From Limnanthes douglasii subsp. nivea (taxonomy: Eukaryota; Streptophyta; Magnoliopsida; Brassicales; Limnanthaceae), in assembly GCA_036936605.1 (NCBI GenBank), contig JAUPFV010000001.1:78759910-78823909 (forward strand): DNA of 64,000 bases, written 5' to 3'. Below, in pieces: positions 1 through 63,660 of this stretch; positions within the stretch are counted from its first letter, which is position 1; each line of letters begins with the position of its first letter. The translations under genes were made by a program, and so were the position numbers. The notes under the pieces are model-generated. The model made no database searches, was not told the origin of the DNA, and saw only the letters and a program-made list of their open reading frames with translations.

Positions 1-276
1 ATATTTGTCATATGATAAGCTGCGAATTGTCATTTATAAAAATATCAGGATATTCAGTAAGGTTGAAAATAAGTAATATAGCAGGTTAACATGCGAATGA
101 AGTGCAAAATGTATTTGGATGCGAATCCTTTATATCATTGAAATTCTGTAAACAAGTTGTATTACAAAAAGAAGGATTGCAATATTTCCAGAAACTAACA
201 ACTGTTTACACATATCAGTACAAGCTACTATTGTTAGTTAGTTGCATTTCAAAAAAACAAAAAACAAAAACCAACT

Positions 277-777
277 CTAGCAGTTGGTAGAGGATTCATC
301 ACCAACTGTTTCCTCTTTCTCCTTTTTGTGCTGATCATCTTTGTCTTTCTCCTCTTTGTCTTTGACATTCTCTTTCTCTTCCACTTTCTCTTCAGCTTCA
401 ATATCTACGTCCATCATGCTTAAAAATTTTGTCCTTGATGGACCAGCTTCGTCTTCCCTCTTCCTTTTGTTGTTTCGAACCTCTGCCGTTTGAGGTTGCA
501 CCTTTTCTGGCTGAGGTGCAGCAGGAAGCATTGGAACCTCTTCTGGCTGAGGTTCAGCAGCAACCTGTGGAACAACTTCCACTGGTTGAGAGTCATCAGA
601 GTAGTAGTCATCATACATGTCTAGTTCGAAGGCAGAGACTGGGCTTGGGGGTTGTACTGCTGGCATGATCAACTCATCACTCCAGTTAACGGTTAAGGAT
701 GACCAGGAGTCACCCAGAGAACCGAGTGAACCAGAGTTTGAGTATGAGGTGGTTGTTGTGGTGGTGGAAAAAGACAT
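277..777 (-). CDS. Small acidic, Lys/Glu-rich hypothetical protein encoded in the MULE
   Basis: Single-exon ORF of 166 codons from an ATG at 777 to a TAG at 277. The N-terminal 45 residues are rich in Ser, Thr, Gly and Trp. Residues 46-62 are acidic with a Tyr/Asp cluster, residues 63-95 are Pro/Gln/Glu/Val-rich, and a basic patch KRKRE near residue 104 could be a nuclear localisation signal. The C-terminal 45 residues are a Lys/Glu/Asp run compatible with a charged helix. A TATA-like CTATAAAAACC lies about 90 bp upstream (864-874 on the minus strand), implying its own promoter. It sits downstream of, and in the same direction as, the Ulp1 gene. I do not recognise the family. Low-complexity composition could inflate ORF length, but the ATG, TATA box and clean frame support a real gene. 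Confidence 0.55.
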   Translation of the reverse strand: MSFSTTTTTTSYSNSGSLGSLGDSWSSLTVNWSDELIMPAVQPPSPVSAFELDMYDDYYSDDSQPVEVVPQVAAEPQPEEVPMLPAAPQPEKVQPQTAEVRNNKRKREDEAGPSRTKFLSMMDVDIEAEEKVEEKENVKDKEEKDKDDQHKKEKEETVGDESSTNC

Positions 778-861
778 GACTTTTTGAATTCTAAGAGAAG
801 AAGATGTGTTTTTTAAAAAAATATAGAGTTTGGTGTAAAATTAGCCTTTGGTTACTAGAGG

Positions 862-874
862 TTTTTATAGGGAA
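862..874 (-). promoter_or_regulatory. TATA-like box of the 277-777 gene
   Basis: Minus-strand CTATAAAAACC lies about 90 bp upstream of the ATG at 777, a normal plant distance allowing a 5' UTR of about 60 nt. No other core element was identified. Confidence 0.45.
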
Positions 875-900
875 AGGAGGTAATCATTACATAGCCTCCA

Positions 901-1393
901 TGTCCAATCAGCATTTAATAAATTATGTACTTGATTAGATTGTTTTTTGTGTGCTCAATGTAGAAAACGTTTACCAAGGCATAAGCCACAGCCTGTTCGA
1001 ATCCTTCCACTTTGTATTTTTAATTTTTTATTTCTGCACCAGGCTGCGAACTGGTTGTAAGCTGGGATACCAGGATGCGAACTGTGTGTGAAGTGATTAC
1101 CATCTATCAGGTTAGGCTGCGAAATATTTGATGATAAGTTATGCTGCGAACTATTCATAAGGATTAGGCTGCGAACTGTTCATACATACAAGAGTAAACT
1201 ACCAGGATCATAATCAACCATTATATATCAGGTTATGATGCGAACTATAAGATAAGAAGTATTCAAGATGTGAAAATGTAATTTGTTTATGTATGCACAA
1301 CGAAACTAAAAATTACAACAGACAGATGTATTTACAAGCAACAGATGTATTTACAAGCAATACACGAATCAGCCATATGTGATGGTGTCTTTG
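901..1393. repeat. Intergenic spacer with TGCGAA motif copies and a short direct repeat
   Basis: Spacer between the small gene and the 3' end of the Ulp1 gene. It holds six TGCGAA copies between about 1044 and 1232, most preceded by GC or GA and followed by CTG or CTA. A direct repeat of about 20 bp (CAGATGTATTTACAAGCAA) occurs twice head-to-tail at about 1322-1359 in what would be the Ulp1 3' UTR. Confidence 0.6.
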
Positions 1394-1618
1394 TCATTTA
1401 AAAAAGTAATTAAACATTTCTGCTCTGAAGGCAGTTACCATATCTGCATCGTATTTTTTCTGCACTGATCCATGCTCAATAATATCCATTGCATATTTGC
1501 AGACGAAGACACCACAGTCCACGTTGCCTCGCTTTTGTTGTGGGATGCCTCTTTCCACTTTCACCTTCCACCCTGTAGTATATTTGGGTAGGAATCCTCT
1601 ATCCAACAAATATTTGAT

Positions 1619-1903
1619 CTGTGTATAATAATTAGTGTTAGGAATATGCACAAAAACAAAAAAAGTTGGTGACATACAATTCGCATCTTAGGCTGCGAAT
1701 TGTATGACAGCCTTGATAGGCTGCGAATTGAGTTGTGGACAGGCTGCGAATTGTATCCAACATGGATAGGCTGCGAATTGAGTTATGGACAGGCTGCGAA
1801 AAAACATCTTGTTTACGCACAATTCGCAGCATACGAGATCTCATTTCGCAGCATGCATAATTAAAATGTGTTCAGATTTAAGTGTATAATTTGGAATATT
1901 TAC
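1619..1903. repeat. Intron 10 of the Ulp1 gene filled with TGCGAA motifs at about 25-bp spacing
   Basis: Bounded by donor GTAAATATT (1903) and acceptor ACACAG (1619). It carries eight TGCGAA/TTCGCA copies from about 1680 to 1850. Five in one orientation are spaced about 24-27 bp, each preceded by GGC. The first two copies form a hairpin with perfect 13-bp arms (1673-1685 and 1694-1706). Confidence 0.7.
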
Positions 1904-2727
1904 TAGTAGTGCAGGTGTTCTTGTGGTGGTGTCTATGGCATGAAGCTTAGGCAAAATCGAATTGTAGTTTGAAATTTTCCTTCCGTCGACGTCGATGACG
2001 AGCAACGTCCAGTGGTTTACATTGTCCTTCGAGTCGGTGCACACTGGAACCATGATGATGTTGGCTGCTTTGCGCCCCTTCCTAAAAGCCATGTCCACCA
2101 AATTTTCCACTTGCCACTCTGCTTTCATTTGATGCTGCATCCAAGCAAGAGTATATTAAAGTGAGAACATTTCTGAGAACTTTGTTCAATTTACGTGAGC
2201 TAAACTTACCGCAGTCATGCCCGAAATCAGTATGGCGTCGTGATGCTCTCCTTTAGCTTTAGTGCATGGAACTTTGTAGTCTGCATCTTCAAGCATCTTT
2301 CGAATCCAAGCATCGATAAGCTAACAAATGAGTTGTAGATTTATGTTAAATATAGAATACATATTTGAAACATTGAAAATAAAATTGGTTCACAATTGGA
2401 TACCTTTACATCCAGCTCCAGTTCTAAAGGTAGTGCCATGACATCACTCGCTTGCACCCTGATTCCGTATATAAACTTGGACTCCGGTAACTGCCATACC
2501 ACTGGATTAGGGGTGTCGCTCTCGTAGGCTTTAACCAACTGTATTTTGTGGTATTCTGCCAGATCGATACGGTCACTTACTTTTGTTGTCTTTGGCCAGT
2601 CGCTGTATTCTACTACTGGCGGTTCCCGCATTGTAATTACGAACTCTTCTTCTTCCTCTGCCACTTGAGGCTGCGTTTGTGTCAGTAGCGCAAAACTTGG
2701 CTGCTCTATCTCTTTACTGGGCTCGAG

Positions 2728-2987
2728 CTTAGTAAATAACAAAAATCAAGAGTAGAAGGGCGTCAGTGGTTTATAAGTGCAACGAGTCCAAACAGTTCGC
2801 AGCTTAGGCTGCAAAATGTAAGGTTCCAGTTAAATAAATTTATTAGTATCTACCAGGGTAGGATGCGAACTGTTCGAGGTTCCACTGAACAGTTCGCATC
2901 CTACCCTGATATTGGTTTGTAATACCCCGATCAGCATTAGACACAAATCTTATGTTATGATGTGAAATCATTATAAGTAGGCCTTAC
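2728..2987. repeat. Intron 7 of the Ulp1 gene with a 22-bp perfect stem-loop built on TGCGAA
   Basis: The arms 2854-2875 and 2887-2908 are perfectly complementary over 22 bp with an 11-nt loop. Each arm contains one TGCGAACTG core. A third copy lies near 2799. Confidence 0.75.
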
Positions 2988-3437
2988 CGCACGGTCAGCG
3001 ACAACCACTGCCGTTGACTTGTTCGGCATAGGATCTGGATCGTGTCGGCAGAAATCATTAATGTCATCCTCCGATATGTTCTCCAAAGACCATTGTATTA
3101 TAGAATCGTAATATACATTATCAATTTCATTTAAAAATGTATGTGAAACTTGAGTACTAATACCATCAACAAAAGCATCGGGTAAACCTACTGTGTTATC
3201 GTGGGACTCTGGAGCTGGCAGTTGATTTGTTACCGGGCCTACAGTTTGACGTTGGCTTAGCAATTCTAACTTTTCTGACAGCACCGTTGGTCTTTGAGGT
3301 TCAACCGAAGAAGTGGTGTTGTCTTCTAAGGATGGTCCTTCCTGGCTGAGTAGTTCTGTCTTCTCACCGGGATGGACAGGTTCTGACTCTTGAGGTGCTA
3401 CCTCTTGAGTTAGCCTTTCTCTCTTCGCCAAGGTTAT

Positions 3438-3794
3438 CTGTTGCTGCTGTTGTTGTCCTTGTTGCTCTTGTTGTTGTTGTTCTTGTTGCCGGTCTTCGTG
3501 TTGAACCTGTGGCTGCTGGTGGTGTTCTTTGTGTTGTTGTTGCAGTGGGTGTTCTTCTTGTTGTTGATGTTCGTGTTGTTGTTGTTGTTGCCGTTGTTCT
3601 TGTTGTTGTTGTTGTTTTTGCTGGGGGTGTTGTTGTTCTTCTTCTTCTTGTTGTTGTTGTTGGGGGTGTTCTTCTTCTCGTTGCTGTTGTTGTTGTTGTT
3701 GTTGTTGTTGTTGCTGTTGTTCTTGTTGTTGTTGTTGTTGTTGTTGTTGCTGCTGGTCTTCCTGTTTCTGCTGGTGTTGTTGTTGGCTTTCGGT
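3438..3794 (-). repeat. Gln-rich (CAA/CAG) coding repeat in the Ulp1 gene
   Basis: The plus strand reads TTG/CTG-rich. On the minus strand, in the frame set by the downstream exon, it reads about 115 residues dominated by Gln with scattered Glu, His, Pro and Lys, open throughout. The tract opens exon 7 right after an in-phase acceptor (AAGAG/ACC at 3794). Mixed CAA and CAG codons with interrupting residues suggest an old expanded repeat rather than a recent pure triplet expansion. Plus-strand Val/Leu-rich ORFs over it are shadows. Confidence 0.75.
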
Positions 3795-3796
3795 CT

Positions 3797-4054
3797 CTTA
3801 TTTCATACAAAAAAAACAAAAGGGTGGAAGGGTTAAGCATAAGTTAATCATTGTGTAATCACATTTCGCACCCTGACCTGATATCTATGTTATACATTCC
3901 TAACAATTCGCAGCTCAGCATGCGAATTGTGTAATAACCAAACCACTAGTTTATTACATAATTCGCAGCTCAAGCTGCGAAACGTTTGGACAAGACTACA
4001 CAAGAGTCCTGATATTTGTTTGATAACATCATATCATCTACTTACATTATCTAC
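3797..4054. repeat. Intron 6 of the Ulp1 gene with two TGCGAA hairpins
   Basis: Hairpin one: 10-bp arms 3903-3912 and 3921-3930, 8-nt loop. Hairpin two: 9-bp arms 3962-3970 and 3973-3981, 2-nt loop. A single TTCGCA lies near 3864. Confidence 0.7.
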
Positions 4055-4837
4055 CTCCTATGTATGTGTCTCCATGATGGGTGAATTGTGGGCATCATCA
4101 TCCCTTTCTTCCGGCAGTACTCCATCAGCATGGTGCTGATCAGCATTAGACACGGATGCTTGCTGATCAGTGGATTTTTGTCCCTCTGGAAGTGCTGTTG
4201 GTACCTGCTTTATTGGGCTTTCAGTACGGCGAATTGGCAGAGAGATAGCATTGTGGAGTTGTTGTGCTTCAAGTTCCGCTATCTTGCGTTTCAATTCTTT
4301 CAGCTGCAAAAATGATAGAAAAATTTTTATAAAACATATTAAGTGCTGATTGTAGTGATTATTTAAGGTTCAAGTCATACTTACTTCTCTGGCCTGTTTT
4401 TCTATTTTTCTCTCGTACTTGTTCTTGTCGGCGTATGTCTTCAAACGCTTAGATTGAGCAACAATATCGGGATTAGGTTCTCTGCGTTTGAATAAATAAT
4501 CACCGATTCTTTCACTCATACTGGTTGTGTCGGTGTCGGAGGGCTCTTTCCTGGATTTGCCTTTCGGTTGTGGTGGAATCGTTTTCTTGGGGAGTCTTGG
4601 TGGTGGAATCGATGGCTCGGGTGGTGTTGGATGTTCGAGTGTGGGAGATATCACCTTATTCATTACATTCTGTGATGCTCGTCTCCTTTGTTTTGGTTTT
4701 GATGTTGTGCTTTTCGTCCTCTTCCTAGGTCTTTCTTCCGGTGAAGTAGGTTCTGTTACTTCTGCATCTTCACCATCTTCTCTTTCTCCGAAAGCTTCAA
4801 TTTCAGCCTCGGTAAGCTGTAATGGACCTTCTAAAAC

Positions 4838-5280
4838 CTACCAACAGATGCACATGTAAGTAAATTAATTGTTTCGAAAGTATGAGGGTGTAGAGAAACA
4901 AATTATTTTGTATAAACAGTTCGCATCATATGATGCGAACTGTGTTATTTTAATCATGTTAGAGTTGCAAAGCATTCGCATTCTGAGCTGCAAAATGTGT
5001 ATGGGACAATATACTGCGAACTATGTGTACCATATGCTGCGAACTAAGTGTAAACCACATGCTGCGAACTAGGTATTTATGTCAGTCTGCGAAAATGGTT
5101 GATGCATGCAGAGCTGCGAAATGTGTGTAAAACTATATGATGCGAACTGTGTAGAGAAAGAAGCTGCGAGGTAAAATTCATATCAGGCTGCGAAATGATT
5201 GATACATTTTTCTAAGCAAAACGCATGATATGCTGCGAACTGTTTGCACCCCCAGTTCAATACATATATAAAGCTTATAC
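4838..5280. repeat. Intron 4 of the Ulp1 gene with about eleven TGCGAA motifs
   Basis: Lies between donor CAG/GTATAAGC (5281/5280) and acceptor GGTAG (4838). It contains a perfect 28-bp palindrome (4916-4943) made of two inverted TGCGAACTGT copies. Further copies follow at roughly 25-bp steps near 5014, 5037, 5061, 5086, 5113, 5140, 5188 and 5232. Variants with one change (for example GCTGCGAGG near 5163) also occur. Confidence 0.75.
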
Positions 5281-6308
5281 CTGGTCATTATCCAGCAAGG
5301 GTGTTCGAAGAAGATATGTCATGGTTGATGCTTGGCACTCTAATCCCAACCATTTGAAAAACCTTGGTATCAATGTTGGCTTTGCTATCTCATGGCCGAT
5401 TGTTGTGTGCTCCATGATGAAGGGTTGCATGGGGACAAGTTTTTATCAACAAGATGCTCTGTACATAACTAGTTTTTATATTGAATAGATGAATCTTACG
5501 ACTACAAGGGCGACGCAGCCGACGACTTTATCAGCTCTTTCTACTGCTAAGCAACTCCTGATAGACTGTCGAAGCTTGTACAGTATTGATCCAGCCCAGT
5601 CATAATTGTTTATTCTGTTGAGGTCTTCAACGTAATAAACTGTGCTCCAGCCCAGGATATCTCCGGATACGGAGTAGAATAGTGTGGAGCACAAAAACAG
5701 TATAAACAGCCTCGCAACATCTTCCAACTCATGCTCCCCTCCTTCGTTTATGGCCTTCGCTATACCCTCATGTAAAACCAACGACAACATGCTATGTTAG
5801 AAATGTACAGAATCTTACTTTATAAAGATGAAGTCCATTTTAGACGTACCTTTATAATGGCATTTGTTATTGTTTTGGTATTACTAGCTGCTACTTTCCT
5901 GCCAGTTTTACCCATGAAGTATTTCTTCATCATCCTTGATTCGTCCTCCTCGCCGGGTGCATACTTGTTGTGAAAAGCTCCGGTTTTTGTTAATTGGATT
6001 TTCTCGGTGCCATGCCTCAAGCCGAATATGATCTTGACATCATTCTCAGTTAGCTTTACATACTTGTTGCCAATCCTAAAGGCGTCTCTATCCACGGAGA
6101 ATTGCTCAATGATATACTGAATGATTGAGTAGAATTTCTTCTTTGGCAGCTCTGCCTCATTACGGATTTGGAAAGCCGTTTTCAGCAGTGTAGAAGGGGG
6201 TGTTTCTTGCAGCTTCAATGTGCGCCCTTGTAATACGCATGTCTTTGAGTAGCTTCAGAAGGCTCACCAACCCTGATCTGTAGTAGCTAGGTTTTGTTGT
6301 CATACTTT

Positions 6309-7120
6309 CTGCACAAACATAAATCAGTTGGAGTGTCAAAAATAATTCGCATCACAAGCTGCGAAATGCATACATATAAATACTGGCTTCACAGACAAGC
6401 TGCGAAATGAGATCTGGTATGATGCGAATTAGGTAGCTCAAGCTACGAATTGTTTGTAAATAAGTATAAACATGCAATCGAGCTGCGAATTGCTTGGATT
6501 GTGGGTGATCAGGGTGCGAACTGTTACACTTTTTACATGCACGTTGCAGGGATCTGGGAATTATGTGACGAACACCAAAATCAACAATGAACTACCTAAT
6601 GCAGATCTAACATACATAATATTTCTCAGGAGAGTATCAGTATTACATGCAACTAAAATTCTACCCTGGCTTCGACTATAAACCCATAAACTGAGCAACT
6701 ATCGTCAGTATATACTTCATTCTAGTATAAAAAGCAACGCGTATCGTAAATTAAGAAAAAAAAGTGGTTCAAATTCGTCAAGAACGAAAAAAAAAGTACA
6801 CTTTCCACGATAATGCATACCTGTTAAATTTCACCGGTCGGAGAACGAGATTGAATCTTTCAGAGACGACTTCACGACAACTTTGTCGAACGAGATTGAA
6901 GGTGTGTAGTCTGACTGAGTAAAAGAGGTTGGCCGGTGCGATAGTGTCGAAGGTGCGAATGGTGAGAAGCTGTAGGGTTTCTGGGTTTGAGAGAGAGAGA
7001 GTATCACAAAGTTGAACGGTTTGTTTTCTGGTGGTTTCTAAAATTAGAATTTTGCGTTTGTTTAGGGTGATAGGAAGGTCGAAAAAGTGGGTTGGATCTG
7101 AAAAATGGGTATATATAGTA
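6309..7120 (-). promoter_or_regulatory. Promoter, 5' UTR exon and first intron of the Ulp1 gene
   Basis: A TATATATA box at 7110-7117 sits just inside the TIR. A transcript starting near 7080 would run to a good donor (AACAG/GTATGC) at 6821/6820, giving a 5' UTR exon of about 260 nt. The first intron (6309-6820) ends with TTTGTGCAG just before the exon with the ATG at 6303. The intron carries six TGCGAA copies between 6346 and 6517, and one more lies in the UTR exon near 6954. The start site is inferred from the TATA position only. Confidence 0.45.
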
Positions 7121-7123
7121 GAA

Positions 7124-7231
7124 GGGTATTTTTGTCCAATTTATTAGTCTGGGTATTAAATAACACTATGTTAAAAGCGGGTACCACCGGGTAATAAGAT
7201 AGTTGAGTGAGTATTTTCAGGTACTTTTCTC
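7124..7231 (-). repeat. Right terminal inverted repeat of the Ulp1-carrying MULE
   Basis: Read on the minus strand from 7231 inward, this arm aligns over about 105 bp with the arm at 7386-7494, including the ends GAGAAAAGTACC, the CTCAACTAT block, a GGTACCCG block and the inner TTGGACAAAAATACCC block. The TATA box of the Ulp1 gene lies just inside it. Confidence 0.8.
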
Positions 7232-7385
7232 TTCTTAAATTCAGACTTGACTGTGTGTAATAATATTAGTGAATTCTTTTGGAAATTTCTTTTGGGATAT
7301 TAATATTTTTCACAAACGGCCTCATTTATGAGGCTATGGATGTAATCGGACTCTAATACCAGAAAATAAAAACAAATAAAAACAA
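7232..7385. other. Host spacer between two related MULEs
   Basis: About 150 bp of AT-rich sequence separates the right end of the Ulp1-carrying element from the left end of the short element. Its last nine bases (7377-7385, TAAAAACAA) are the left copy of the short element's target duplication. Nothing else is seen. Confidence 0.6.
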
Positions 7386-8453
7386 GAGAAAAGTACCGGT
7401 AAATACCTTCTCAACTATGTTATTACCCAGCGGTACCCGTTTTTTGGATAGTGTAACTTGGTACCTCGAACTGAAATTTGGACAAAAATACCCTCGACCA
7501 AATATAGGCGCGCGCTGGTAAAAAAAATTAAAAAAAAAAACTGGTACAATTCTCAAGATGCGAATTGCTTGCAAATTCTCAGGATGCGAATTGCTTGCAA
7601 TTTCTGAAAGATTCTCATGATAAGATGCGAATTGCTTGCAATTTCTGAACGATTCTCATGATAAGATGCGAATTGCTTGCAATTTCTGAACGATTCTCAT
7701 GATAAGATGCGAATTGCTTGCAAAATTCTGAACGATTCTCATGATAAGATGCCAATTGCTTGCAACTCTCAAGATTTCTGAACGATAAAAAAAAACTGGT
7801 ACAATTCTCAGGATGCGAATTGCTTGCAAATTCTCAGGATGCGAATTGCTTGCAAATTCTGAACGATTCTCAAGATAAGATGCGAATTGCTTGCAATTTC
7901 TGAACGATTCTCATGACAAGATGCGAATTGCTTGCAATTTCTGAACGATTCTCATGATAAGATGCGAATTGCTTGCAAATTTCTGAACGATTCTCATGAT
8001 AAGATGCGAATTGCTTGCAACTCTCAGGATTTCTGAACGATAAAAAAAAACTGGTATGAAAAAAAAACAACTGGTACAATTCTCAAGATGCGAATTGCTT
8101 GCAATTTCTGAACGATTCTTGCAACTGGTGAAATTTTATTTTTTAAAAAAATCAAAAAATATTATCAATGGATCTAGTTTTGTTCATTTTTAAAAAACAA
8201 AAGTGATGGTACTTTCATTTATTTTTTTCGAACTCCGGTTCGAAAGATACGGATCTTTTAAAAATAAAATTAAAGAAAAAGTAGGAAAGAGAAGGAAAGA
8301 GAAATTTTGGTTACATGTTCATAAATGGTGAGGGTAGTGAGGGTATTAAAATAAAGTTAGGTACTATATGACAATTAGGTAGTTGAGTTGGGTATTAAGT
8401 GAATTGAGTATAACAATAAAATAGTTGAGTAGGTACCTTTGGTACAATTTCTC
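7386..8453. mobile_element. Non-autonomous MULE with perfect 9-bp target duplication
   Basis: The ends are GAGAAAAGTACC (left) and its inverted counterpart GAGAAATTGTACC (right, minus strand). Each arm extends about 110 bp (7386-7494 and 8339-8453) with shared blocks such as CTCAACTAT. The element is flanked by identical 9-bp direct repeats TAAAAACAA (7377-7385 and 8454-8462), the duplication length typical of Mutator. It has no coding capacity. The interior is mainly a minisatellite of 41-bp units containing GATGCGAATTGCTTGC (7555-8110), then AT-rich sequence. It shares both TIR and motif with the larger element at 1-7231, so it is probably mobilised by the same transposase. Confidence 0.85.
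7555..8110. repeat. Minisatellite of about 41-bp units with a TGCGAATTGC core
   Basis: About a dozen units, with clear 41-bp steps at 7622, 7663, 7704 and again at 7878, 7919, 7960, 8001. Each has the core GATGCGAATTGCTTGCAA followed by a TTCTGAACGATTCTCATGA segment. Within the core, AATTGC and GCAATT form a short palindrome around TT. Shorter units of about 26 bp occur at the array edges (7555-7600, 7805-7860). One unit near 7748 has GATGCC instead of GATGCG. Confidence 0.85.
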
Positions 8454-8462
8454 TAAAAACAA

Positions 8463-9220: not shown

Positions 9221-12200
9221 TCATTTCTTGTACGACGAAACCAAATCAATATCTTCAATTGCGCCACCAACCTTTTGATCTTCTAACTGTAACATTCTTG
9301 CAAAAACACCAACCAATGGGGCAGTATTATAAGTACAAGCCTCCGTCTGCACATAATTATCTCTCCTGTCCATAAACTTATCTTCAGAATCCGGTCCACC
9401 AACCAAAGCCCCAACAAGCACGTTAGGGTTAGGCTCAGGCCGTCCGTACCAATTATCGTACCCTTGTGTGCATCCAATGAACCCTTTGTTATCTCTATAA
9501 GACATAACCGAAGCTCCTCTATGGTGTACTCTTGTTGGGTACTTAGTACCATAACCAACTAAATAACTCGTTCCTGCCGGGTTAAGACCTAAAATATAAT
9601 CTATCTGAGTTTTGGCGAAACCTAGGATTTCGTCATGAGTGACTTTTTGTCCGTTGCAGTTTAGTTTTTGGTTTGAGTTACGAAGGAGGTCTGAGTAGAT
9701 TGTGAGTACGAATGCTGCGGTTGATACGTATTGCATGTTGTTCCATTCACGGATGTATAATAGACCGCCTGGGGTACGTTCTATGTTGGTGCGGTTGTTT
9801 TTGTTAAGACAAGCGCATATGTAGAACTCAGTTTTTGACTTGTATTGCTCAAGTATGTCTTTATGTGCTTTGTGTTTATCTTCCATTCCCAACTGTATAC
9901 CATATCAAACTAGACAATATTAATCCCTGAAGTAACTAAAATAACTGTCAGAAATTGAGAAGAGTAGAAAAACAATGTCTTTGGACTCATTTGACTAAAA
10001 AAGGTGGGACCTGGACTGTAATGAACGATGGGTCCAAAAGAACAAATTAAGCTGTGCAACATGAGTATATTAATCAGACGGTACTGATGTCACAATATCA
10101 TACTATCTCACTACATGTAATAAAGACAATGTCTAATCTTGAATATATAATTCAACCAATACTATCACGCCAAGTGAACCTTCTTTGATACAGAAGAATT
10201 CAGAAGTACTGCTATCCGAAGCGACAGCCACATGGAAATAAGACGAAACTTATTTTCTCAAATAATATTTTGATATTTTTTTAACAAAAACATTTTTTCC
10301 TGAATTACCGCCTACATAATATACCTTTGAAAAAAATTCTTATAATTCATAACTAAAGCATGAACACAAACGTGATATGAAGATATTATACCATGTTTGG
10401 ATGATAGGAAAAGTAAAATCCCATAAAGATCTAAAGTTCAAATGCTAGCCATTGCCTTTTGCCATTAAGAAAAAGTAAAAAAGCAAATGCACTTAAAGGA
10501 GAACCTCCTACTAGGCGCCTAGTTAAAATTTAAGTGTAGTATTAATTTTAGAATATTAAATATATCCCTCAACTTTGTTTTAAATTTAAAAATTACAAAA
10601 TATATTACTCACCTGACCCACAAGACATTTCCTTTCAAGTTTTCATCAAGAAATAATTTGCTAATTTTCTAACTAGAAATGATTTTACCCCTGTAGTTGA
10701 GTGAGATTGAAACACATGTCTTCTTTAACTTTATTGACCCACATAAAGAAGTCTTTGTTTGTCTCAACTCTCAACGACTTAATTAAGACTTTAAACGGAA
10801 TTTCAGTTGTACTAGTCTCGAGCTAGAAAGCCTAAACATATGTTTAATTAACTTAAATTAATACATGCAGGGCCATCATTCATGGCATAATAGTCCAAAC
10901 TGGGTTTTTGTTTTCAGCTCAGAAAGTTTCAAAAGGACCAAAACAAAGAGCAAACATGCCAAGTGCGTTTATTTACTGTGTGGCCTATATACAAAAAGGT
11001 TTTTTTTACTATACATACAGAAGATTTTTTACTATACACATAGTTATATTTTTCCGTGTGGCAAAAACATTTACACATTTTTTGCATATTTTATCATGTC
11101 GGCAAAAACAGAAATTTATGTCACACAAAACAGAACATGGACATCGACCGTTAATGGTTTTTAGAATCGAAATCGTAACCAAACGGATAAAAATTTGATC
11201 AAGAATGCGACAGAATTTCTATTCACAGTTTTATTTAAAACAATAAGAAAATGAATAGATAAAACCGGTTTGAAAACGAATCTATAAACACATTATAATG
11301 AATGGTTTTAATTTACTTATTTTTATATAATATATTGCTAAAATTATCAGGTAAAAAATTCATTTAAAAAATTACATATTTAGCGGTTGAAATTATTTTT
11401 TTTATATCATTTATATATATAAAGTAAAATATTTGGAAATCATTTTTTTTATTAATATTGAACGACCAAAACGGATAAAAACAAAACAGACCAAACTAGA
11501 CGGGATCGAAAGCTTAGCGATCTCATCAGATTCTAAAAATTAGAACCAAAATTTTATCGGTCGGATCGAAAACTATACACAGCGTCTGATCAAAATCTAG
11601 ACAGATAACAGGCCTGCATAGCCCTGTACATAATAGATCATTTCCCAAAAATTATAATAGATTTCGAAAAACACATTCTACAACTACTAATAGTAAAAAT
11701 CGTATATAGTAATTTTATGTCGATGGTAAAAAAATATTTTATATATATATATATATATATGATGGGCTGAATAATTAGCAAGAAAATTTGTAGGAAATGA
11801 GAGAGAGAGAGAGTACCTTTGTAGCTAAAAGTTGAATGCCAACATACTTAACATCCCAACTAAATTCAGTAATAGCCCAAGTCACACCACCAAAAGAATG
11901 AGCCTCCTTAACCACGTAGTTGAAATACTCTCGATTGTCGGTGGCTTTGTACAACCACATTGCTCCCCACAACAATTCATCCATGTACCCACTCACCGAC
12001 GCATAGTACCTCTTCACTACCCCAATACTACTGTCATATTTCCCTCTATATTTGTCCCCAAACTCAAACAACTACACCAATAAAACATTAACCCATTTTA
12101 GAGCAGTTGGATCTAATCACTATCATCATCATAAAAACTATTAACCTTAAAAGGTTTAGTTTACCTGCTGAGCATGATGCAATAGTAGGTGGGAGTAATG

Positions 12201-12986
12201 TGAATTCGTTTGTCTGAACACAATCGATGCAGCTGCCATAGCCGCTGCTGTTTCTCCGGCCAGATCCGACCCGGGATTATTTTCATCGATTTTGTAAGCT
12301 CGTCTTGACGTCGTCATATCTTCAGGTCGCTGCCAACAATAGTGATCGGTGTCTCCATCACCAACCTAATCAATACAAACACAAATTAATCACATCACTT
12401 CACTAACTTCGATACGTTAGTAGGAGTACTTCAATACTAAGATGAGTTGCTATAATTATTAACGACCTCAGCCCATAACACATTGGGGCTAGTGTGCGCT
12501 TTGATGAAATAATCCGTTCCCCATTTGATCGACTCAAGCGCGTGCTCTAACTCGCCGGCCAGTTCAAGTTGTTTACGGTTTTCGATGACGCTCCATGAGA
12601 GCATTGTGATTGTGAACGCCATTGGTAAACCGAACTTGACATGGTCACCAGCATCGTAGTATCCTCCGACTAAATCAACCTTCATTTGAAAATCAACACT
12701 CACAGCTAAAATCAATCGAGTTCGATTTCATCTAAACGGTTAGAAATTCGAAAAATCGAGAGAAATTACTTACTCCTTGTTCGATTCCGTCGGTAAGACC
12801 AGAGTGATCGCGCCACGTGACACGTTGGTTATACGGTAACCGGCCGGATCGTTGCGATTCGAAGTAGAGAAGGCTTTTTGTGAGAGCATCGGCGTAATCG
12901 AAAGCGCGAATGCAGGTGAAGAGAGTGAAAATGGAGAAGAGAAAACAGAGTTGTAGAGACTTGTTTTGACTCTTCTTCTCCTCCAT
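9221..12986 (-). CDS. Secreted GH9 class-B endo-beta-1,4-glucanase (cellulase)
   Basis: Five exons (minus): 12986-12774, 12679-12467, 12365-12165, 12071-11817, 9892-9221. All junctions are GT/AG and phase 0, giving 71+71+67+85+223 = 517 codons plus stop. It hydrolyses internal beta-1,4-glucosidic bonds in the cell wall. Residues 1-28 form a signal peptide, with mature FDYADAL following. The nucleophile/base loop YYDAGDH gives Asp80 and Asp83. The first GH9 signature ([17 protein letters not shown]) is near residues 403-419, and the second ([18 protein letters not shown]) carries the catalytic acid Glu478. No membrane anchor or C-terminal carbohydrate-binding module follows, so it is class B. 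Wording near [12 protein letters not shown] recalls Arabidopsis endoglucanase 11, from memory only. The exon 2 donor (GTCGTT) is weak. Intron 4 is about 1.9 kb. No frame damage: likely functional. Confidence 0.93.
9893..11816 (-). other. Large intron 4 of the endoglucanase gene
   Basis: A 1.9-kb intron (donor GTACTC at 11816, acceptor TATACAG at 9893), far longer than the other three introns (about 90-100 bp). It holds only AT-rich sequence, a short (TA)n run at about 11742-11760, and 11130-11600, where phrases such as ACCAAACGGATAAAAA and GGTCGGATCGAAAAC recur in both halves. The last looks like a decayed small inverted-repeat element, but I could not fix its ends. Confidence 0.5.
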
Positions 12987-13590
12987 TGATGCTTGATCCT
13001 ACTTAGAAGTAACAGTAATGAAAAAGCAGAGAGAGAAAACAGAGGTCTCTCGTTTATGTTTTTGTTTTTGTCTCTCTCTCTCTTGTTTCTCTCTCTTGAG
13101 CATGTGAAAACGGTGGTTCTCTCTCAGACTTTAAAGCTTTCTTCGAAATGGAAAGCGTGGTTTAAGCAACTGTTTTCACTAGAAATGGAAAAAAAAATGG
13201 AAACGGAGAGAGAGGCCTCCACCACATTTGGATTTCCATCTGTTTCTTTGCTTTTGGTTTTATTTATTACGGGGCATGTCTTTTGGTTTTAAATTCTTGC
13301 AACGGGAATGGTTTTAGAGTTGCTTCGTCTAGCTACCATTTAAGACCTTTTACCGTATTTTGTTATTGAAATATCATCTTTCATAGTAATTTTTTATCTA
13401 TAAATGTTCATATTGTTTCTAAAATTTATTTTGTATATATATTAAAATTTAAAATTTTGAGAATATGCTTGGTCTAAATCATTTATTTGTTTTTATATAT
13501 GATTGGTTTTTTTATAAAAATAAATTGATTGAAAAATATTTTCTCCATTCTATCTAATGTTTGAAAATCGGAATTTAATATGAAAAAGGT
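12987..13590 (-). promoter_or_regulatory. 5' flank of the endoglucanase gene with GA/CT-rich stretch
   Basis: On the minus strand the 120 bp before the ATG at 12986 are full of GAGAGA runs (13025-13100), a common feature of plant 5' UTRs and core promoters. A TATA-like AATAAATAAAA lies at about 13258-13268. The exact start site cannot be set. Short plus-strand ORFs here are shadows. Confidence 0.35.
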
Positions 13591-19298: not shown

Positions 19299-19567
19299 TG
19301 TTAAAAACCAATAGAGAAGTAGCCTTTTGTATTGAACTGTTTTTTATTGAATCAAATCATTACAAGTTGCGCTTGTTTTACTAGGAATGGTAATAAGGCT
19401 CTCAATATATAGAGAACTTAGAGGTCTATACAAGGAAACTTAATACACTGATTTATAGGGAGAAGATTAAGGACCGTATGTGAAATCCCAAATTATAGTG
19501 GTCAATAGTTGACCCCAATTATTAATCCATGAATCCAGCTTTCCAAATTTAGTCGAATATTCTAACA
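19299..19567 (-). repeat. 3' LTR of the Copia element
   Basis: 269 bp; about 95 percent identical by eye to the 5' LTR, but it lacks roughly 45 bp near its minus-strand 3' end (the segment at about 24006-24050 in the other copy). Confidence 0.9.
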
Positions 19568-22500
19568 CTCCCCCTCAAGTTGTGTAGTGGGATCACCAAT
19601 ACCCAACTTGGATAAAACCGATTCGAATGTTCTTGCAGTAAGCACTTTTGTCAGGATGTCTGCCAGTTGGTCTTCGGATCTAACAAACGGAAGTTCGACT
19701 GTCTCATCTTCAATATTTTCTTTTATGAAGTGCCTATCTATTTCAACGTGCTTTCTTCTATCGTGCTGTACCGGGTTCTCTGAAATTTTAATCGTAAATT
19801 TATTATCGCACGTTAACTGAGTTGGACGCTTCAAAGGGAACAGATTTTTTTTCATTATCTTCTTTAACCAAAGTATCTTGATAATCCCCTTAACGATTCC
19901 TCTAAATTCCGATTCAGCACTTGACAGTGAAACTAATTTCTGTTTCTTACTCGTCCAAGTCACCAAGTTACCTCCAAGAAGAGTAAAGTAGCCAGCAGTT
20001 GATGGCTTGTCGTTAGGATTCCCTCCCCAATCAGCATCTGTGAATACTTCAACATCAAGGTGTCTATTTTTCTTATAAATTATGCATCATCCTGGTGTGC
20101 CTTTGAGATATCGAATAATCCTCATTACTGCATCCATATGGTGTTCCTGAGGATGATACATGAACTGGCTAACTACTCCCATCGCGTATGCAATATCGGG
20201 TCGAGTGTGAGCCAGGTAAATCAATTTTCCCACCAACCTTTGTTACCTTTCTTTACTCGCTGGTCTGGCCCCTTCAATTATCTTTAGTTTGTGATTCAAA
20301 ACCATAGGAGTGTCATTTGGTTTGCAATCCACCATGCCAACTTCAGCTAATAAATCCAATATGTATTTCCATTAGGAGATATAAATCCTCCTCTTGACCT
20401 AAGAACCTCGATTCCTAGGAAATACTTCAATCCCCGAGGTCTTTCATTTCGAACTCCTTGAAGAGGTTTTTCCTAAGAGAGCTAATTTCTTCTTCGTCAT
20501 TCCCCGTTATAATCATATCGTCGACATATATTATAAGACAAGTGACTAATTCTCCTTATGTTTTGTAAAACAAGGTATGATCCCCATTACTCTGTTTGTA
20601 GCTATACTACTTCATTGCCATTGTAAATCTCCCAAACCAAGCACGAGGAGACTGTTTGAGCCCATATAATGCCTTTTTCAGTTTACATACCTTATTTTCT
20701 TAAAAACCATCAGAGAACCCTGGTGGTGGTTCCATATATACCTCTTCTTCCAAGTCTCTATGTAAGAAATCATTATTTACATCAAATTGATGAAGAGGCC
20801 AATCTTTATTCGGGGCTATTGAAAGTAAAACTCTTATAGTGTCAATCTTTGCAACCGGAGAGAACGTTTCAGAGTAGTCTATACAATATGTTTGTGTATA
20901 TCATTTGGCAACCAATCTTTCCTTGTGTCGCTCAATGGTACCATCGGATTTATATTTTATATTAAACACCCATCTACACCAGACTGCTTTCTTCGCTTCT
21001 GGTAACACACAATTCTCCCATGTACCATTCCTTTTTAGAGCTTCCATTTTGGTATTCATTGCCTCATGCCATTCAGTCATCTTATTAGCTTCTTGAGCTG
21101 TTTTAGGGATTTGTTCAGAGAGAATAGTAGTTGAAAACTCCTTTGCAATCTTCGTCATTCCTTTCCTGTCCATTTTTACCGGATATGTAGAAGCACGAGG
21201 AACGTGTTCCGGTGAATACCGGCTAGGAGGAACCCCTCTATTTTTTCTTGGGGGAAGAACCAGAGTTTGAGTTTCAAAAAATGAACTTCTTGAAATATCA
21301 TGATCAGTAGCATTTTGTGAGTTATGACATTTTAAATTGTTTACCTCTTGATGGACACTTTCTTCGGCTGATTCGCTGGTAGTATCCATGGCATTTGTTT
21401 CTTGTTGGACATTATCTTCGGGAGAATCATTGGTGGTAAGAACTGCCTCGTCAGTCTCCTTTATGTTGGAAAAGGCGTGTTCGGTGGCGTCATCTACCGA
21501 CTCTGTCTGCACATCCTCAAAGTAACTTTCATATAGCAACCAGTCGAGTGATTCACTTACTTTCTCCCCCTGAGCACGAGATTGGTGGTAAAAAAAATCG
21601 GATTCTAAGAAGTCACGGTTCATGGTGACATGCATTCGACGAGTAACCGGATTGTAACACCGATAACCCATTTGATGGACACCGTACCCAACGAATACAC
21701 ACTTTTCAGCACACGGATTAAGTTTGTCTCGACTAGTTTTAGGGATATGAACAAACACCGAACAACTAAAGACACGGGGTAGTAAGATCATAACAGATGG
21801 AATTGTAACTTGGGTGGCAAGCACTTGTAATGGAGTTTTATTTCCTAGACATCAGGTTGGTAGACGATTTGCAAGATACGTGGCTGTAGCAAGAGCTTCT
21901 GGCCAAAGAGAATGAGGAACTCTAGATTCAATCATAATAGCACGAGTTTTTTCAAGTAAAGTACGATTTTTTTGTTTTGAAGTACCGATATGTTGAGGTG
22001 TGTTCGGATAAGTGGTTTAATGGATAAGACCATTTGTTTTGAAAAAATTATGCATTGTTTGGTTGACAAACTCTGTTCCATTATCAGAACAGATAATCTG
22101 TATTTTTTTCTCAAATTGAGTCAAAATTATTTTGTAAAAACAAACAAATATTTCTGGTACTTCTGATTTATGTTTCATGAAGTATATCCAAGTCATTCTT
22201 GAGAAATCATCCACAAATAAAACAAAGTATTTGATTTTATTATTAGTGGAATTCGGTGCTGGACCCCAAACATCAGAATGGATTAGCGAAAAAACATAAT
22301 CAACTCTAGTATTACCTTGATTAAATGAGACCCTACGATTTTTTGCAAGAATGCAGGTTTCACATTTCTCATGAATGGAATTATTCAAAAAAAGACTAGG
22401 AAACAAACTTTTAAGATAGTTAAAAGAAGGATGACCAAGTCGTCGGTGCCATAACCAAAGTTTCTTTTCAATTGTTCCGTGAGCGATCATGGCATGTCCC

Positions 22501-23929
22501 TTATGAACTACCTCATCAACATAATAGAGACTTCCTTGTTCAGTACCACGCCCAATGATCTCCTTTGTACGAATGTCCTGTAAAACGCAAAAAAATGGAT
22601 GCATAAGAACCACACAGTTTAGTTATTTTGTCACTTGACTAACAGATAATAACTTTAAGGATAGTGAAGGAATGTATAGGCAGTTTTTAATTTCCATTTT
22701 TTCCGAAAAAATAATTGAACCTCCCCCTTTGACTTCACAAATTTCTCCACTGGCAGACTCAATACAGGACTTCTTTGGAGATGACATGTCACCAAAGTCT
22801 TTAGGATCATAAAACATGGTGTCCGTAGCCCCGCAATCAAATATCCAATTCATTGATTTCTCAAACCCTTTACCTCCAAGTTTTTCGTATGAGTTCGCCG
22901 CCATTCCTCCAAAACCAGTGCCACTTCCTTGCTCATTTTTAGTCGGATTTTCACCGCCACTTGTAAACGAAGCCCGTTTAACATTAGATCTGAAACACTG
23001 GTTATTTTTCTCCTTATGATCGTCCTCCCACCATTCTGGATAGCCAACCAGCTGGAAACATGTCTCTTTAGTATGTTTCTTCATCCCACAATGAGTGCAA
23101 TACAACTTGGATTTATCTTCTTTCTCTTTGGATCAGAATTTAAACCTCTGTGCAGAATCTTTAGCAGCCAAACCCATTCAAATTTCAATCGAGTCACTAT
23201 CAAAAGAACTTGATTTTAGTATATTAAGCCTTGCCACTTCTCTTCGTATTGTAGCATATGTTGTTTCCACGGAAGGAAGAGGATCCTTTTTCCAGGGATA
23301 TCTATCTTGACTGGTTCCAGCTTGTCATTAATCGCCATTAGCAATTGATAGAGTCTTTGTTCTTAAGTCTTCTTATTGTAGATCTGAATGTCTTCTGGGT
23401 CTTTCATAGGGTTCGGATCTCGTCTATCTATGGACATCCAGATGTTCTGCAGTTTGTTCCACAAGTCTTCTAGTGTATCGGACCCTTGCCTTAATGAATT
23501 AGCCCTCTTATGAAGGTCAAACACCTGTAACGAATCTGTACCAGCACCGTATGTAGTGGCTAACCCATCCCAGAGGGCTTTTGCAGTGGGATATTGCGAG
23601 ACATTATTCACCAAGCTGGATTCAAGTTTCTGGATAATCCATGTGAAAACACATTGATCATCCTGTTCCCACCTTGGATATGTGTTGTCAGTTTTGGATG
23701 GAGGTGTCGACTCTTCTGTAATGTGAGAACCTCTCCCCCTTCCCCCAATTGATTTCTTCATCAGGTTTGCCCATAGGGCATAGTTGTCACCACCGAGTTT
23801 AATCCCTAGGGATAAATTATCGGGGTTAGTTGTTTGTTGTAGTGTTTCGAGACCATTTCTCAGAATGGCAGCAATCTGCATTGTTAATTCATCAGGGATT
23901 TGACTGACCACGACTTCATTGCCAGCCAT
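19562..23929 (-). pseudogene. Copia gag-pol, interrupted
   Basis: Gag (23929-23363, 188 codons from an ATG) has the plant Copia gag fold with LGGDNYALWANLM. Protease follows in 23105-22623: a CxxCG..KHT..C knuckle-like start and WIFDCGATDTM with the catalytic Asp. Integrase (22613-22017) has the H-H-C-C zinc set (WHRRLGHPSF, CETC) and two DDE Asp residues (HSDVWGP, CSDNGTEF). The expected third residue, Glu of the GTSERKNR type, reads Lys (GTSKQKNR, about 21978-21980). 21824-20901 covers the integrase-RT linker (FVGYGVHQMGYRCY) and RT start. RT (20900-19970) still shows YVDDM near 20525 but has several stops and shifts. RNase H (19966-19562) has SSAESEF and ADILTK. The pol stop codon lies inside the 3' LTR. 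Non-autonomous now. Confidence 0.88.
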
Positions 23930-23979
23930 CTTTGTTGAGGATGTTCAGATTTCCCAGAATCACACGTGCTCTGATACCA

Positions 23980-58126: not shown

Positions 58127-61100
58127 TTAATCATCATCAAAGAATCTGAAATAACCTAGATTTAATGATTCTAATAACGTTATTGCATTTAATTCATTCA
58201 AATGATGTATTGATTCAACCATGAAATTAGAATTCACTTTCAGTGCGTATTTTGCTACCCAATCAGCAGCATAGTTCTGCTCTATATATATGTTTCAAGG
58301 TCATTTGTGGCTTAATCAAAGATCTACAATATGTAAGCATTTGATCTAAATACCAAGGATAACTGCCATTTGCAAGCATATTGAATAAGCTGAGACAGTC
58401 TGTCTCAATATCTACAAGCAATAAATCATGATCCTTATAGTACATCAGCCCATTTGTTAAAGCTAAAACCTCAGCATTAATGGAAGAACACTTCCCAAGC
58501 AAGTCACCTTTAGCTATTAAAATAGCTCCTAAACTATTCCTAATTATAAAACTAGAACTAGCCTCACCATTGTTTAAAGCAGATCCATCACAATTCAATT
58601 TAAGTCTATTATGATCAGGCAAGGACCAGACAACATACAGAGATGATTTTGTATATTTAACATGATTAAAACATTTCAAGTCTTTGGCTAAATACAGATC
58701 TTTAGACCAATGCTTCCTTGACAACCGCAAGCCTGAATCTAGAGATGCAAGCATGAATAGAATATTGTTGACTATCCTTTTGGGAGATAAGGTTTTATCT
58801 TTGTGTTTACAACTATTTCTAGCATGCCAAATAGAGTATACAATCAATGCGACTCACATGATACAAAGACATGATTTAAAGTTTCTAGATTCTGGCAACT
58901 AGAGCATTTAGATGCTAAACTAAAACCAATCTGTTGCAGCTTAATATCTATACTTAAAATGTTATTCAGTACTCTCCAAAGGACAAAAGAACATTTTTTT
59001 GGTGAGATATTATTCCAGACTTTATCTTTTATTTGTGACTCTATGGCTTTGATCCTTACTTCATTAACAGTTCTCTTTAAATTAAATTTTCCATCAATTA
59101 ATAATTTCCAGATTATAGAATCAGATAAGCATGGGTTAAAATTAACTTTAGTGATTTCATTCACATAATTAACAGGCAACATACTTAACAATTTATCAGT
59201 GTTCCATACATCATCTATCCAATACTCCTTAATCTTTGTTTGTGTATAGTGTATAGAATTACTTGCTGTTAAAGTTATTAAAGGTTTGGTATTGTACCAA
59301 TGATCTAACCAAAAATCTGCATCACCATTACCTAACTTCCATCTTATTTGTTTTTCAGCACTTTCCCTAACTTCATACATTCTCTTCCAAATTTTAGAGT
59401 CTGTCATTCTCAATGTTGATTGTAAAGGATGTAAGCTATTACAGTACTTTGAATGCATTATGTCTGACCAAAGTGTTTTATTATCCCTAAAGTTAAACCA
59501 AAGTTTGTATGAAAAAGCAGTTTGTAAGTCTCTTATACTTCTGATATTTAATCTATTTTCTTTATAAGGCTTACACACTTTATCCCAAGTAGACCATACT
59601 ATATGCTTATCAGTCTCACTAGACCCCCATAAAAACTTATTAAATAGCTTCTCAATCCTAGATATAGTTTTTAAAGGTAACTTAATAGATTGCAAATAGT
59701 ATATAGGGTATGACATAAGAACAGAGTTTATTAAGGTCATTTTGCCTCCAAAAGATAGTTTTTTAGAGTTCCAATCTAAAATTTTAGTTCTTATCTTATC
59801 TATTAACATCTCAAAGTGAACTGAATGATTATTTGTATGAATTGGAATGCCTAAATAAGTAAATGGAAGATCATAATGTTTAAAACCTAAAATATTTTCT
59901 AAAGATGATATTCTTGATCTGTTCATTCTTAAAGGAGTTATGAAAGTAGTTTTTTGTGTATTTACTTGTTGACCAGAAAGAGCTTGATAAGAATCTAAAA
60001 ACTCAGTTAACTTTTTTATATTTGTTTGAGAACCATTAACAAATAGAATAATGTCATCAGCGTAAGCTAAGCAGTTAATCCTTACTAAACTTTTCATATT
60101 ATAGGCCATAGAGCTATGATGTTCAATTAAGTTATTCACACCCCTAATTAGGAATTCCTCTGCTATAATAAAAAGATAAGGAGACATAGGGTCTCCCTAC
60201 CTAAGACCATTAACAGATTTAAAGAAACCATAAACATTCCCATTAACTATAACTGAATACCTAACATTCTCTATGCTTTTCTTAATCAACTTAATAACTC
60301 TATCATTAAACCCAAATGACAACAAGACGTCATAAATGAAGTTAAACTCTAAGTTTGTAAATGCTTTTGACATATCCAAGTTTATAATTACATTATCTCC
60401 TCTGACTTTCCTATTCAAATCCTTAACTAACTCCTGAGTTATTAATATGTTCTCTTGAATAAGCCTATGTTCTACGTATGCTCCTTGTTCCTTAGATATT
60501 ATAAAAGGCAGTAACTTAGCTATTCTAAGGTTTATAAGTTTTGAAATTATAATATTCAGCACAGAACACAAACTTATAGGTCTAAAATGTTTCCAAGTTT
60601 TAGGTGAATTATTTTTAGGTATTAAACATATTAATATAGCAAACAAACTTTTAGGTAATGTAACTTTTAGAAAATAATCTATGACAGCATTTAAGAGATC
60701 CTTTTTTATAATAGACCAACAAGAAACATAAAATCTGGAGTTGAAGCCATCAACTCCAGAAGCACTATCAGGGTTCAAACTCTTAATGACAGCATGAAGT
60801 TCATCTAAAGTAGGCAGTACTAAGATACTATCATTATCAACAGACGATATTATTTTAGGAATAACACTTTAACTGAAGAAAAATCTTTTTGAGTTTGAGT
60901 TTTATTTAACAAATTAAAGAAGTATTTTACAGCAGAATCTCCTATCAAACTATCATCTTCAATCCAACTATTATTTTCCTGAATTTCTTTTATAATATTT
61001 TTAGATCTTCTCTTCTTTACATAATTATGAAACATTGCAGTATTGTTATCACCATCTGTGATCCAATTAGAATAACTTTTCTGTTTCCAATAATCCTCTT

Positions 61101-62097
61101 CTCTCTTAAGCAATATAGAATATGTAATGTTTAAACTGTTTAACTTACTTTGATTTTCAGAACAATCATTTTCTTCTAATCTAAACTCAGCAATTTTTAT
61201 ATCTTCTTCTACTTTACTTAAAAGATCAAAAATGTTTCCAAACGTTTCTTTATTCTATATTTTTAAACGTTCCTTAAGCCTTTTAAGTTTTGACCAAAAT
61301 ATAAACATATTTGAAGAGTCACAGATTGACTTAGACCAGTTATCATTCACAGTTTTTAAGAAATTTTCATGCCTTAACCACATATTCTGAAATCTAAAAG
61401 ATGGTTTTTTATATGTTGAATTATTAGTTACTGAGATTAACAATGGAGAATGATCTGAATATGTTCTAGCCAAATGATTTACCTTTGTTATATTAAAAAT
61501 TTCTCTCCATTTATCATTATGCAATGTTCTATCAAGTCTTTTCCACTTATGATTATTTGTCCAGGTATAATTTGAACCAATGTAACCAGGGTCTTCTAAT
61601 TTACAGTCTATAATCATATGGTTAAATTCATCTATACCTCTAGAGCAAAGAGTATTACAAGCCAATTGTTCATTTACATTAGAGATAGTATTAAAGTCTC
61701 CAACCACTAACCAGGGTAAACTAGTAGCTGAAATATTTCTTAACTGATCCCATAACAACATTCTATGAGCCCTATTACATTTTTCATAAACTATAGTAAT
61801 TAAAACTACTGACTTAGATGAAGAATGACTTACTATAGCATTTAAAAGTTGATCAGAATTATCCAAAACATCAATTTCATAACCATTTTTCCAGAGCAAC
61901 CATATTTTATTATTAGTATTTGCCAATTGTGAATTAAAACCCAGTTTTAGGCAGATTGAAGCTATATTCTCTGCTGATATCATAGGCTCTTGAAGGGCTA
62001 TGATATCAACAGCAAATTTTTTAATCATGTTCTTTATTCTTCTTATTGTTTTACAATTACCAATTCCCCTTACATTCCAATTAAGTAATACAGTCAT
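58127..62097 (-). pseudogene. LINE ORF2: endonuclease, reverse transcriptase, zinc knuckle, RNase H
   Basis: Endonuclease from ATG 62097 (LNWNVRGIGN, ALQEPMIS, VVGDFN, YSDHSPLL) to TAG at 61257-61255. A linker reads YWKQKSYSNWITDGDNNTAM (61060-61010). A one-base frameshift lies near 60868 (VKVLF versus VIPKII). RT: NPDSASGVDGFNSRFY, LIPKNNSP, PISLCSVLN and DMSKAF, then GLR and a TAG (60199-60197) where the family has Gln before GDPMSPYLF. The catalytic YADDIILF is intact near 60065. 58844-60187 continues through SFGGKMTLINSVL to the zinc knuckle CSSCQNLETLNHVFVSCES. The frame then breaks near 58846 with the usual connecting stretch missing. RNase H (58847-58263) has LNCDGSA, NAEVLAL and DIETDC. 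A last shift near 58280 leads to AADWVAKYA and the stop at 58127. Both TAGs could be CAG-to-TAG changes. Confidence 0.88.
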
Positions 62098-62270
62098 TTA
62101 GAAGTTTTATAAGTGGATCTTATAGACCTTTTAAAGTTCCTTGATCTAGATATCACTTTATTTCTTGCAGATCTTCTCACATTAACATTAAATGACTCTT
62201 TAATAGTTTTCCTTTGCTTAGGTGAATTAGGCTCACTTATACTAGACCTTACTAAGGGCATCTGTTCTGT

Positions 62271-63653: not shown

Positions 63654-63660
63654 CTTTCCT

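Follow-up and report, generated by a model that had tools for sequence, protein, structure and literature searches.

TGCGAA arrays in the noncoding DNA of a Limnanthes Mutator-like element as a probable target of a VANC-like protein

Some Mutator-like elements (MULEs) of plants encode anti-silencing proteins that recognise short motifs multiplied in the element's own noncoding DNA. In Arabidopsis, VANC21 binds the motif YAGTATTAY, which has multiplied in the introns, intergenic regions, and terminal noncoding regions of VANDAL21 (Hiun), is absent from exon probes, and occurs in tandem repeats and in C- and T-types, and VANC binding is accompanied by a loss of DNA methylation (PMC5735166). The VANC6 targets AGTTGTCC and AGTTGTAC are likewise found in tandem repeats in the noncoding DNA of VANDAL6 (PMC5735166). 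A 2026 review (PMC13317346) describes some VANC genes as carrying a Ulp1 domain (KIU) and the elements bearing them as recognising their own motifs, and ULP sequences are reported from MULEs with and without terminal inverted repeats (PMC2528002). The present study concerns a 64,000-nucleotide stretch of Limnanthes douglasii subsp. nivea (GCA_036936605.1, contig JAUPFV010000001.1, positions 78,759,910 to 78,823,909; hereafter the window), in which a MULE-like element bearing a Ulp1-protease gene (element 1) and a gene-less MULE-type relative (element 2) are filled with copies of the hexamer TGCGAA. By analogy with the Arabidopsis systems, we consider it probable that a VANC-like protein, the predicted product of the same element's Ulp1 gene, targets these arrays and would keep the element free of methylation. 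Among the observations behind this proposal are the placement of the arrays, a core kept amid near-random flanks, the homogenisation of C- and T-types, and a core shared with the gene-less relative.

An original prediction for this locus had claimed about 55 exact TGCGAA copies in 8.1 kb, where few would be expected by chance, and had called the motif rare elsewhere in the window. Exactly 55 copies were counted in positions 1-8110 (44 on the forward and 11 on the reverse strand), where the dinucleotide content predicts 4.0, and five in the remaining 55.9 kb, all enrichment being a comparison inside the 64-kb window. For the whole window the count of 60 was never reached in 100 shuffled sequences (mean 15.3). 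The longer form G[CA]TGCGAA[ACT]TG, which had been proposed for most copies, was present 36 times in positions 1-8110 and 0 times in the rest of the window. When the hexamers of positions 1-8110 were ranked by observed over expected counts, the top four (CGCAGC, TGCGAA, CTGCGA, and CGCATC, with their complements) were all fragments of one motif. An Rfam scan of the window returned 0 families at the gathering score, and a known structured RNA therefore does not explain the arrays.

The copies are confined to particular compartments of the two elements (Table 1), in a distribution that bears out the predicted one, with segment counts resting on a gene model built by eye. Five long introns of the Ulp1 gene (260-512 bp, 1,910 bp in total) hold 33 copies, two spacers hold nine, the inferred 5' untranslated region (UTR) holds one, and element 2 holds 12, whereas the exons together with ORF1 (open reading frame 1; 3,606 bp in total) and the five short introns (2, 3, 5, 8, and 9; 75-90 bp each, 412 bp in total) hold none. 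Copies are also absent from the promoter and terminus of element 1 (271 bp), from the 154 bp between the elements, and from the initial 173 bp of element 2. As in VANC systems, then, a short motif is multiplied in the noncoding DNA of the element itself.

Table 1. Features of the two elements, in window positions; C-type and T-type copies have C or T, respectively, after the core
Feature	Position	Strand	Remarks
Element 1, MULE-like, gene-bearing	1..7231	-	Right end 7231; left end beyond window
Spacer, window's left edge	1..276	.	3 copies
ORF1	277..774	-	Acidic, lysine/glutamate-rich; no Pfam match
Spacer, ORF1-Ulp1 gene	775..1393	.	6 copies, 5/6 C-type
Ulp1-protease gene, coding exons 2-11	1394..6311	-	GT-AG joins by eye
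Exons 2-6	5850-6311, 5500-5766, 5281-5409, 4385-4837, 4205-4303	-	
Exons 7-11	2988-3794, 2404-2727, 2210-2320, 1904-2134, 1394-1618	-	Exon 7 with polyQ
Intron 1 (5' UTR, inferred), 512 bp	6312..6823	-	6 copies
Intron 4, 443 bp	4838..5280	-	11 copies, 7/11 C-type
Intron 6, 410 bp	3795..4204	-	5 copies, two 14-bp head-to-head pairs
Intron 7, 260 bp	2728..2987	-	3 copies, 3/3 C-type
Intron 10, 285 bp	1619..1903	-	8 copies, 6/8 T-type
Target-site duplication TAAAAACAA	7377..7385 (left), 8454-8462 (right)	.	Perfect, 9 bp
Element 2, MULE-type, gene-less, 1,068 bp	7386..8453	+	12 T-type copies, mostly in 41-bp repeats
Tandem array, 41-bp period, about 10 units	7583..8020	+	Every unit with motif core or close variant

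Element 2 has the hallmarks of a MULE: the target-site duplication around it measures 9 bp, the usual size for Mutator-like elements (PMC2528002), and its termini form imperfect inverted repeats of about 40 bp interrupted by small gaps. Aligned with the right end of element 1, read inwards, its left end shows 78.9% identity over 123 aligned positions (114 nt at 78% in a second alignment), and no other copy of the right end of element 1 was found elsewhere in the window. The idea that a short sequence had multiplied within one MULE family fits these observations.

The arrangement of the copies follows a small set of distances. Among neighbouring forward-strand copies less than 60 bp apart, the spacing was 22-28 bp in 15 cases, near the predicted 25 bp, 41-42 bp in nine, and between 31 and 55 bp in the other five, and the arrays contain tandem repeats with periods of 23-26, 41, 50, and 255 bp. 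The head-to-head pairing that had been noted is real and has a single shared distance: five reverse-strand copies (1680, 3907, 3962, 4920, and 6346) are followed by a forward-strand copy exactly 14 bp downstream, and two more (2796 and 4975) have a decayed right arm, TGCAAA, at the 14-bp place, such that seven of the 11 inverted copies among the 43 of element 1 stand in a fixed palindromic arrangement. With random placement, the maximum in 2,000 trials was three exact pairs at any one distance, against the five seen. One of these sites forms a perfect palindrome of 26 bp at 4917-4942 in intron 4. Such pairs would suit a DNA-binding protein that acts as a dimer, and this protein could also be a transposase: the motif copies might be internal binding sites that serve transposition rather than anti-silencing, like the subterminal repeats of cut-and-paste elements, and their presence in element 2, which retains only ends and motif, favours such a role. 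Subterminal repeats are nevertheless hard to reconcile with the empty 271 bp beside the end of element 1 and the empty initial 173 bp of element 2, and most copies lie deep within introns, at distances from the end of as much as 7 kb; we regard this explanation as improbable.

Alignment of 42 element 1 copies refined the motif to a conserved unit of about 15 bp, rather than six, approximated by [TC]A.G[CA]TGCGAA[ACT]TGT. Upstream of the core, T or C occupied position -5 in 40 copies, A position -4 in 36, G position -2 in 37, and C or A position -1 in 39; downstream, position +6 was a base other than G in 42/42, position +7 was T in 35, and position +8 was G in 28. Little signal was present outside roughly -11 to +12, and flank identity in element 1 ranged from 0.33 for copies in different segments to 0.38 for neighbours, against 0.27 for random pairs; among the element 2 copies it was 0.64. 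When sites in both elements were picked by their flanks only (G[ACG]..[ACT]TG), 38 had an exact core and four had one-base changes (two TGCAAA, one TACGAA, and one TGCCAA). A flank-only profile found the exact core in 22 of its 24 best sites and 36 of its 60 best, although the profile had been derived from sites with an exact core and is biased towards them, and hence serves as support only. Near-matches counted in noncoding DNA regardless of context (for example, 18 TGAGAA and 11 TGCAAA) were mostly outside the unit.

Each core contains one CpG, and its retention can be compared with the fate of CpGs around it. In the noncoding DNA of element 1 outside the motif, the observed/expected ratio of CpG was 0.45 (46/101.7), compared with 0.63 in the exons of element 1 and 0.62 across the remaining window sequence. 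Within the context G[AC]..[ACT] in element 1, 35 cores were intact versus two TGCAAA and two TGTGAA, the forms expected of CpG decay. Because the motif's CpG has been kept where other CpGs were lost, the copies would be young, selected, or little methylated.

The variants of the motif are also sorted by location. In element 1, copies of one segment tend to share the base after the core (mutual information of 0.674 versus 0.287 when shuffled, p 0.001), and T follows the core in 12/12 copies of element 2. From this segment-wise clustering of C and T, together with the 41-bp repeats of element 2, the spread of the motif looks like local duplication with homogenisation. Replication slippage, which the original prediction had offered as one origin, probably does aid the multiplication of the motif. 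As a complete explanation, it would make the arrays minisatellites grown neutrally in noncoding DNA free of constraint, and no binding protein would be involved; some arrays are indeed true tandem repeats of the periods given above, and the motif avoids the coding exons, from which slippage products would be removed. Slippage alone, however, does not account for an intact core amid near-random flanks, for CpG-containing cores that persist among depleted CpGs, or for an inverted spacing fixed at 14 bp, and we find it unlikely as the sole cause.

The gene that would encode the binding protein was modelled with 11 exons, an inferred 5' UTR exon and ten coding exons, and introns 2-10 are all in phase 0. 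A longer exon 6 (to 4058) contained an in-frame stop, and the shorter donor was therefore taken, a choice that leaves the motif counts unaffected. The spliced C-terminal 296 aa matched Peptidase_C48 (PF02902; E 2.2e-13, 51 bits, cut-off 20.7), and the Ulp1 part matched human SENP5 (E 1e-5) with the catalytic His and Cys aligned and retained relative to SENP1 and SENP5. A C-terminal Peptidase_C48 domain is thus present in a MULE gene, as is reported for KIU (Kaonashi) and for MULEs of melon, rice, and grapevine that contain ULP1. A protein search with the Ulp1 part yielded 886 candidates with 0 at E 0.001 or better, in a collection that seemingly lacks plant relatives. The only Pfam match in the N-terminal part was to Plant mobile domain (E 0.14), under its cut-off. 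Exon 7 includes a long CAG/CAA-like tract (3439-3785) that encodes a glutamine-rich stretch; variable, repeat-rich regions are reported for VANC proteins too (PMC5735166). ORF1 is probably a second gene of element 1, and the visible part of the element contains no gene besides ORF1 and the Ulp1 gene.

The resemblance to VANC21 and VANDAL21 extends to the MULE-type element, the short family-specific motif, its location in introns and spacers, the tandem repeats, and the C- and T-types, while the motif letters differ and the VANC21 motif has no CpG where every TGCGAA core has one. VANC6 and VANDAL6 supply a second, independent motif, alike in the tandem repeats of noncoding DNA and unlike in its letters and in having no CpG. 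VANDAL ends are described as degenerate (PMC10398659), in contrast to the visible inverted repeat of element 2. The placement and density of the copies, their variant types, and the presence of the Ulp1 gene are all in line with a VANC system, so that a VANC-like reading is favoured, and the original prediction's suggestion that the motif is bound by a protein of the element itself would fit by the same analogy. Protein recognition, array specificity, and methylation loss are carried over from Arabidopsis VANC21 and VANC6, and from resemblance to function is a step that we infer. The original prediction knew of no description of such a motif; this stands for the letters, as no account of TGCGAA as a plant MULE motif was found among the papers listed in the literature searches, judged by title and opening of the abstract (it may be in print in the eudicot study of Sasaki et al. 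2022), but not for the phenomenon, which was published for VANDAL21 and VANDAL6 (PMC5735166). The kind of system is accordingly known, and the letters of the motif are new as far as searched.

Several observations weigh against a VANC-like target. VANC21 motifs are described as standing in one orientation, in contrast to the inverted copies noted above for element 1. VANC proteins carry DUF1985/DUF287, and a search of the 247 N-terminal aa of the spliced protein at E up to 10 detected neither domain, although the DUF1985 model is derived from Arabidopsis and may miss distant members. Within the window, element 1 yielded no MULE transposase among the pieces scanned (short of a full six-frame scan). 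Local homogenisation was absent for the base before the core in element 1 (p 0.36), and element 2 outside the motif was less CpG-poor, with an observed/expected ratio of 0.83 (22/26.4). In the Ulp1 gene, the frame of exon 2 is broken internally, and in exon 10 (about 1900-2000, reverse strand) an Asn is aligned to the YDS Asp of SENP1 and SENP5, which we take to be the catalytic Asp of the His-Asp-Cys triad of Ulp1/SENP proteases. From the frame break and this substitution, the present copy of the gene may be inactive; judged from its residues, an inactive Ulp1 protease may suit a DNA-binding role over a protease role.

Two further alternatives fare less well. The copies could be intronic enhancers or sites for host transcription factors that drive the element's genes, as might be suggested by their occurrence in spacers and in introns, that of the 5' UTR among them, but copies extend across the whole element, including the 3' introns, the spacer past the gene, and the gene-less element, while the promoter-side 271 bp has none, which makes this role very unlikely. 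That the motifs are targets or sources of small RNAs feeding RNA-directed DNA methylation is the most remote of the possibilities, for although Arabidopsis noncoding VANDAL regions are targets of VANC and RNA-directed methylation alike (PMC10398659), a conserved unit spanning about 15 bp between diverged flanks would, we reason, fall short of a 21-24 nt match, and the intact CpGs speak against long-term methylation at the motif sites.

If the arrays are the target of a VANC-like protein, that protein would recognise the unit of about 15 bp, in some cases as a palindrome bound by a dimer, and the density of the arrays would confer family specificity. Binding would lead to a loss of methylation, which could allow expression or mobilisation of the element and of its gene-less relatives. 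The motif would multiply through tandem duplication, and selection for protein binding would preserve the core. The CpG in every core and the several palindromes of fixed spacing raise a more speculative version, which we hold as doubtful, in which the binding site would act as a methylation sensor: a dimer would bind only unmethylated DNA and binding would keep that DNA unmethylated, making a self-locking on/off switch for each copy.

The surroundings of the two elements contain other genes and mobile sequences. A glycosyl hydrolase family 9 gene lies at about 9224-13000 on the reverse strand (E 7.5e-52 for 9224-9904), and both elements are inserted downstream of it. Pieces of a Copia-type long terminal repeat (LTR) retrotransposon with gag and SH3-like matches were found at 19565-23944 (reverse strand), and a non-LTR retrotransposon with DUF4283, endonuclease, reverse transcriptase, and zf-RVT matches at 58266-63659 (reverse strand).

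Should the arrays prove to be the target of a VANC-like protein, motif-guided anti-silencing would be extended to a plant element whose inverted ends are visible, and a clean motif would be at hand for testing how anti-silencing proteins choose their targets. The CpG in each core would make it possible to ask if methylation of the binding site blocks the protein, a question that the CpG-free motifs of VANC21 and VANC6 cannot answer. Element 2 would in turn offer a case at hand in which a non-autonomous copy may benefit from the anti-silencing protein of another copy.

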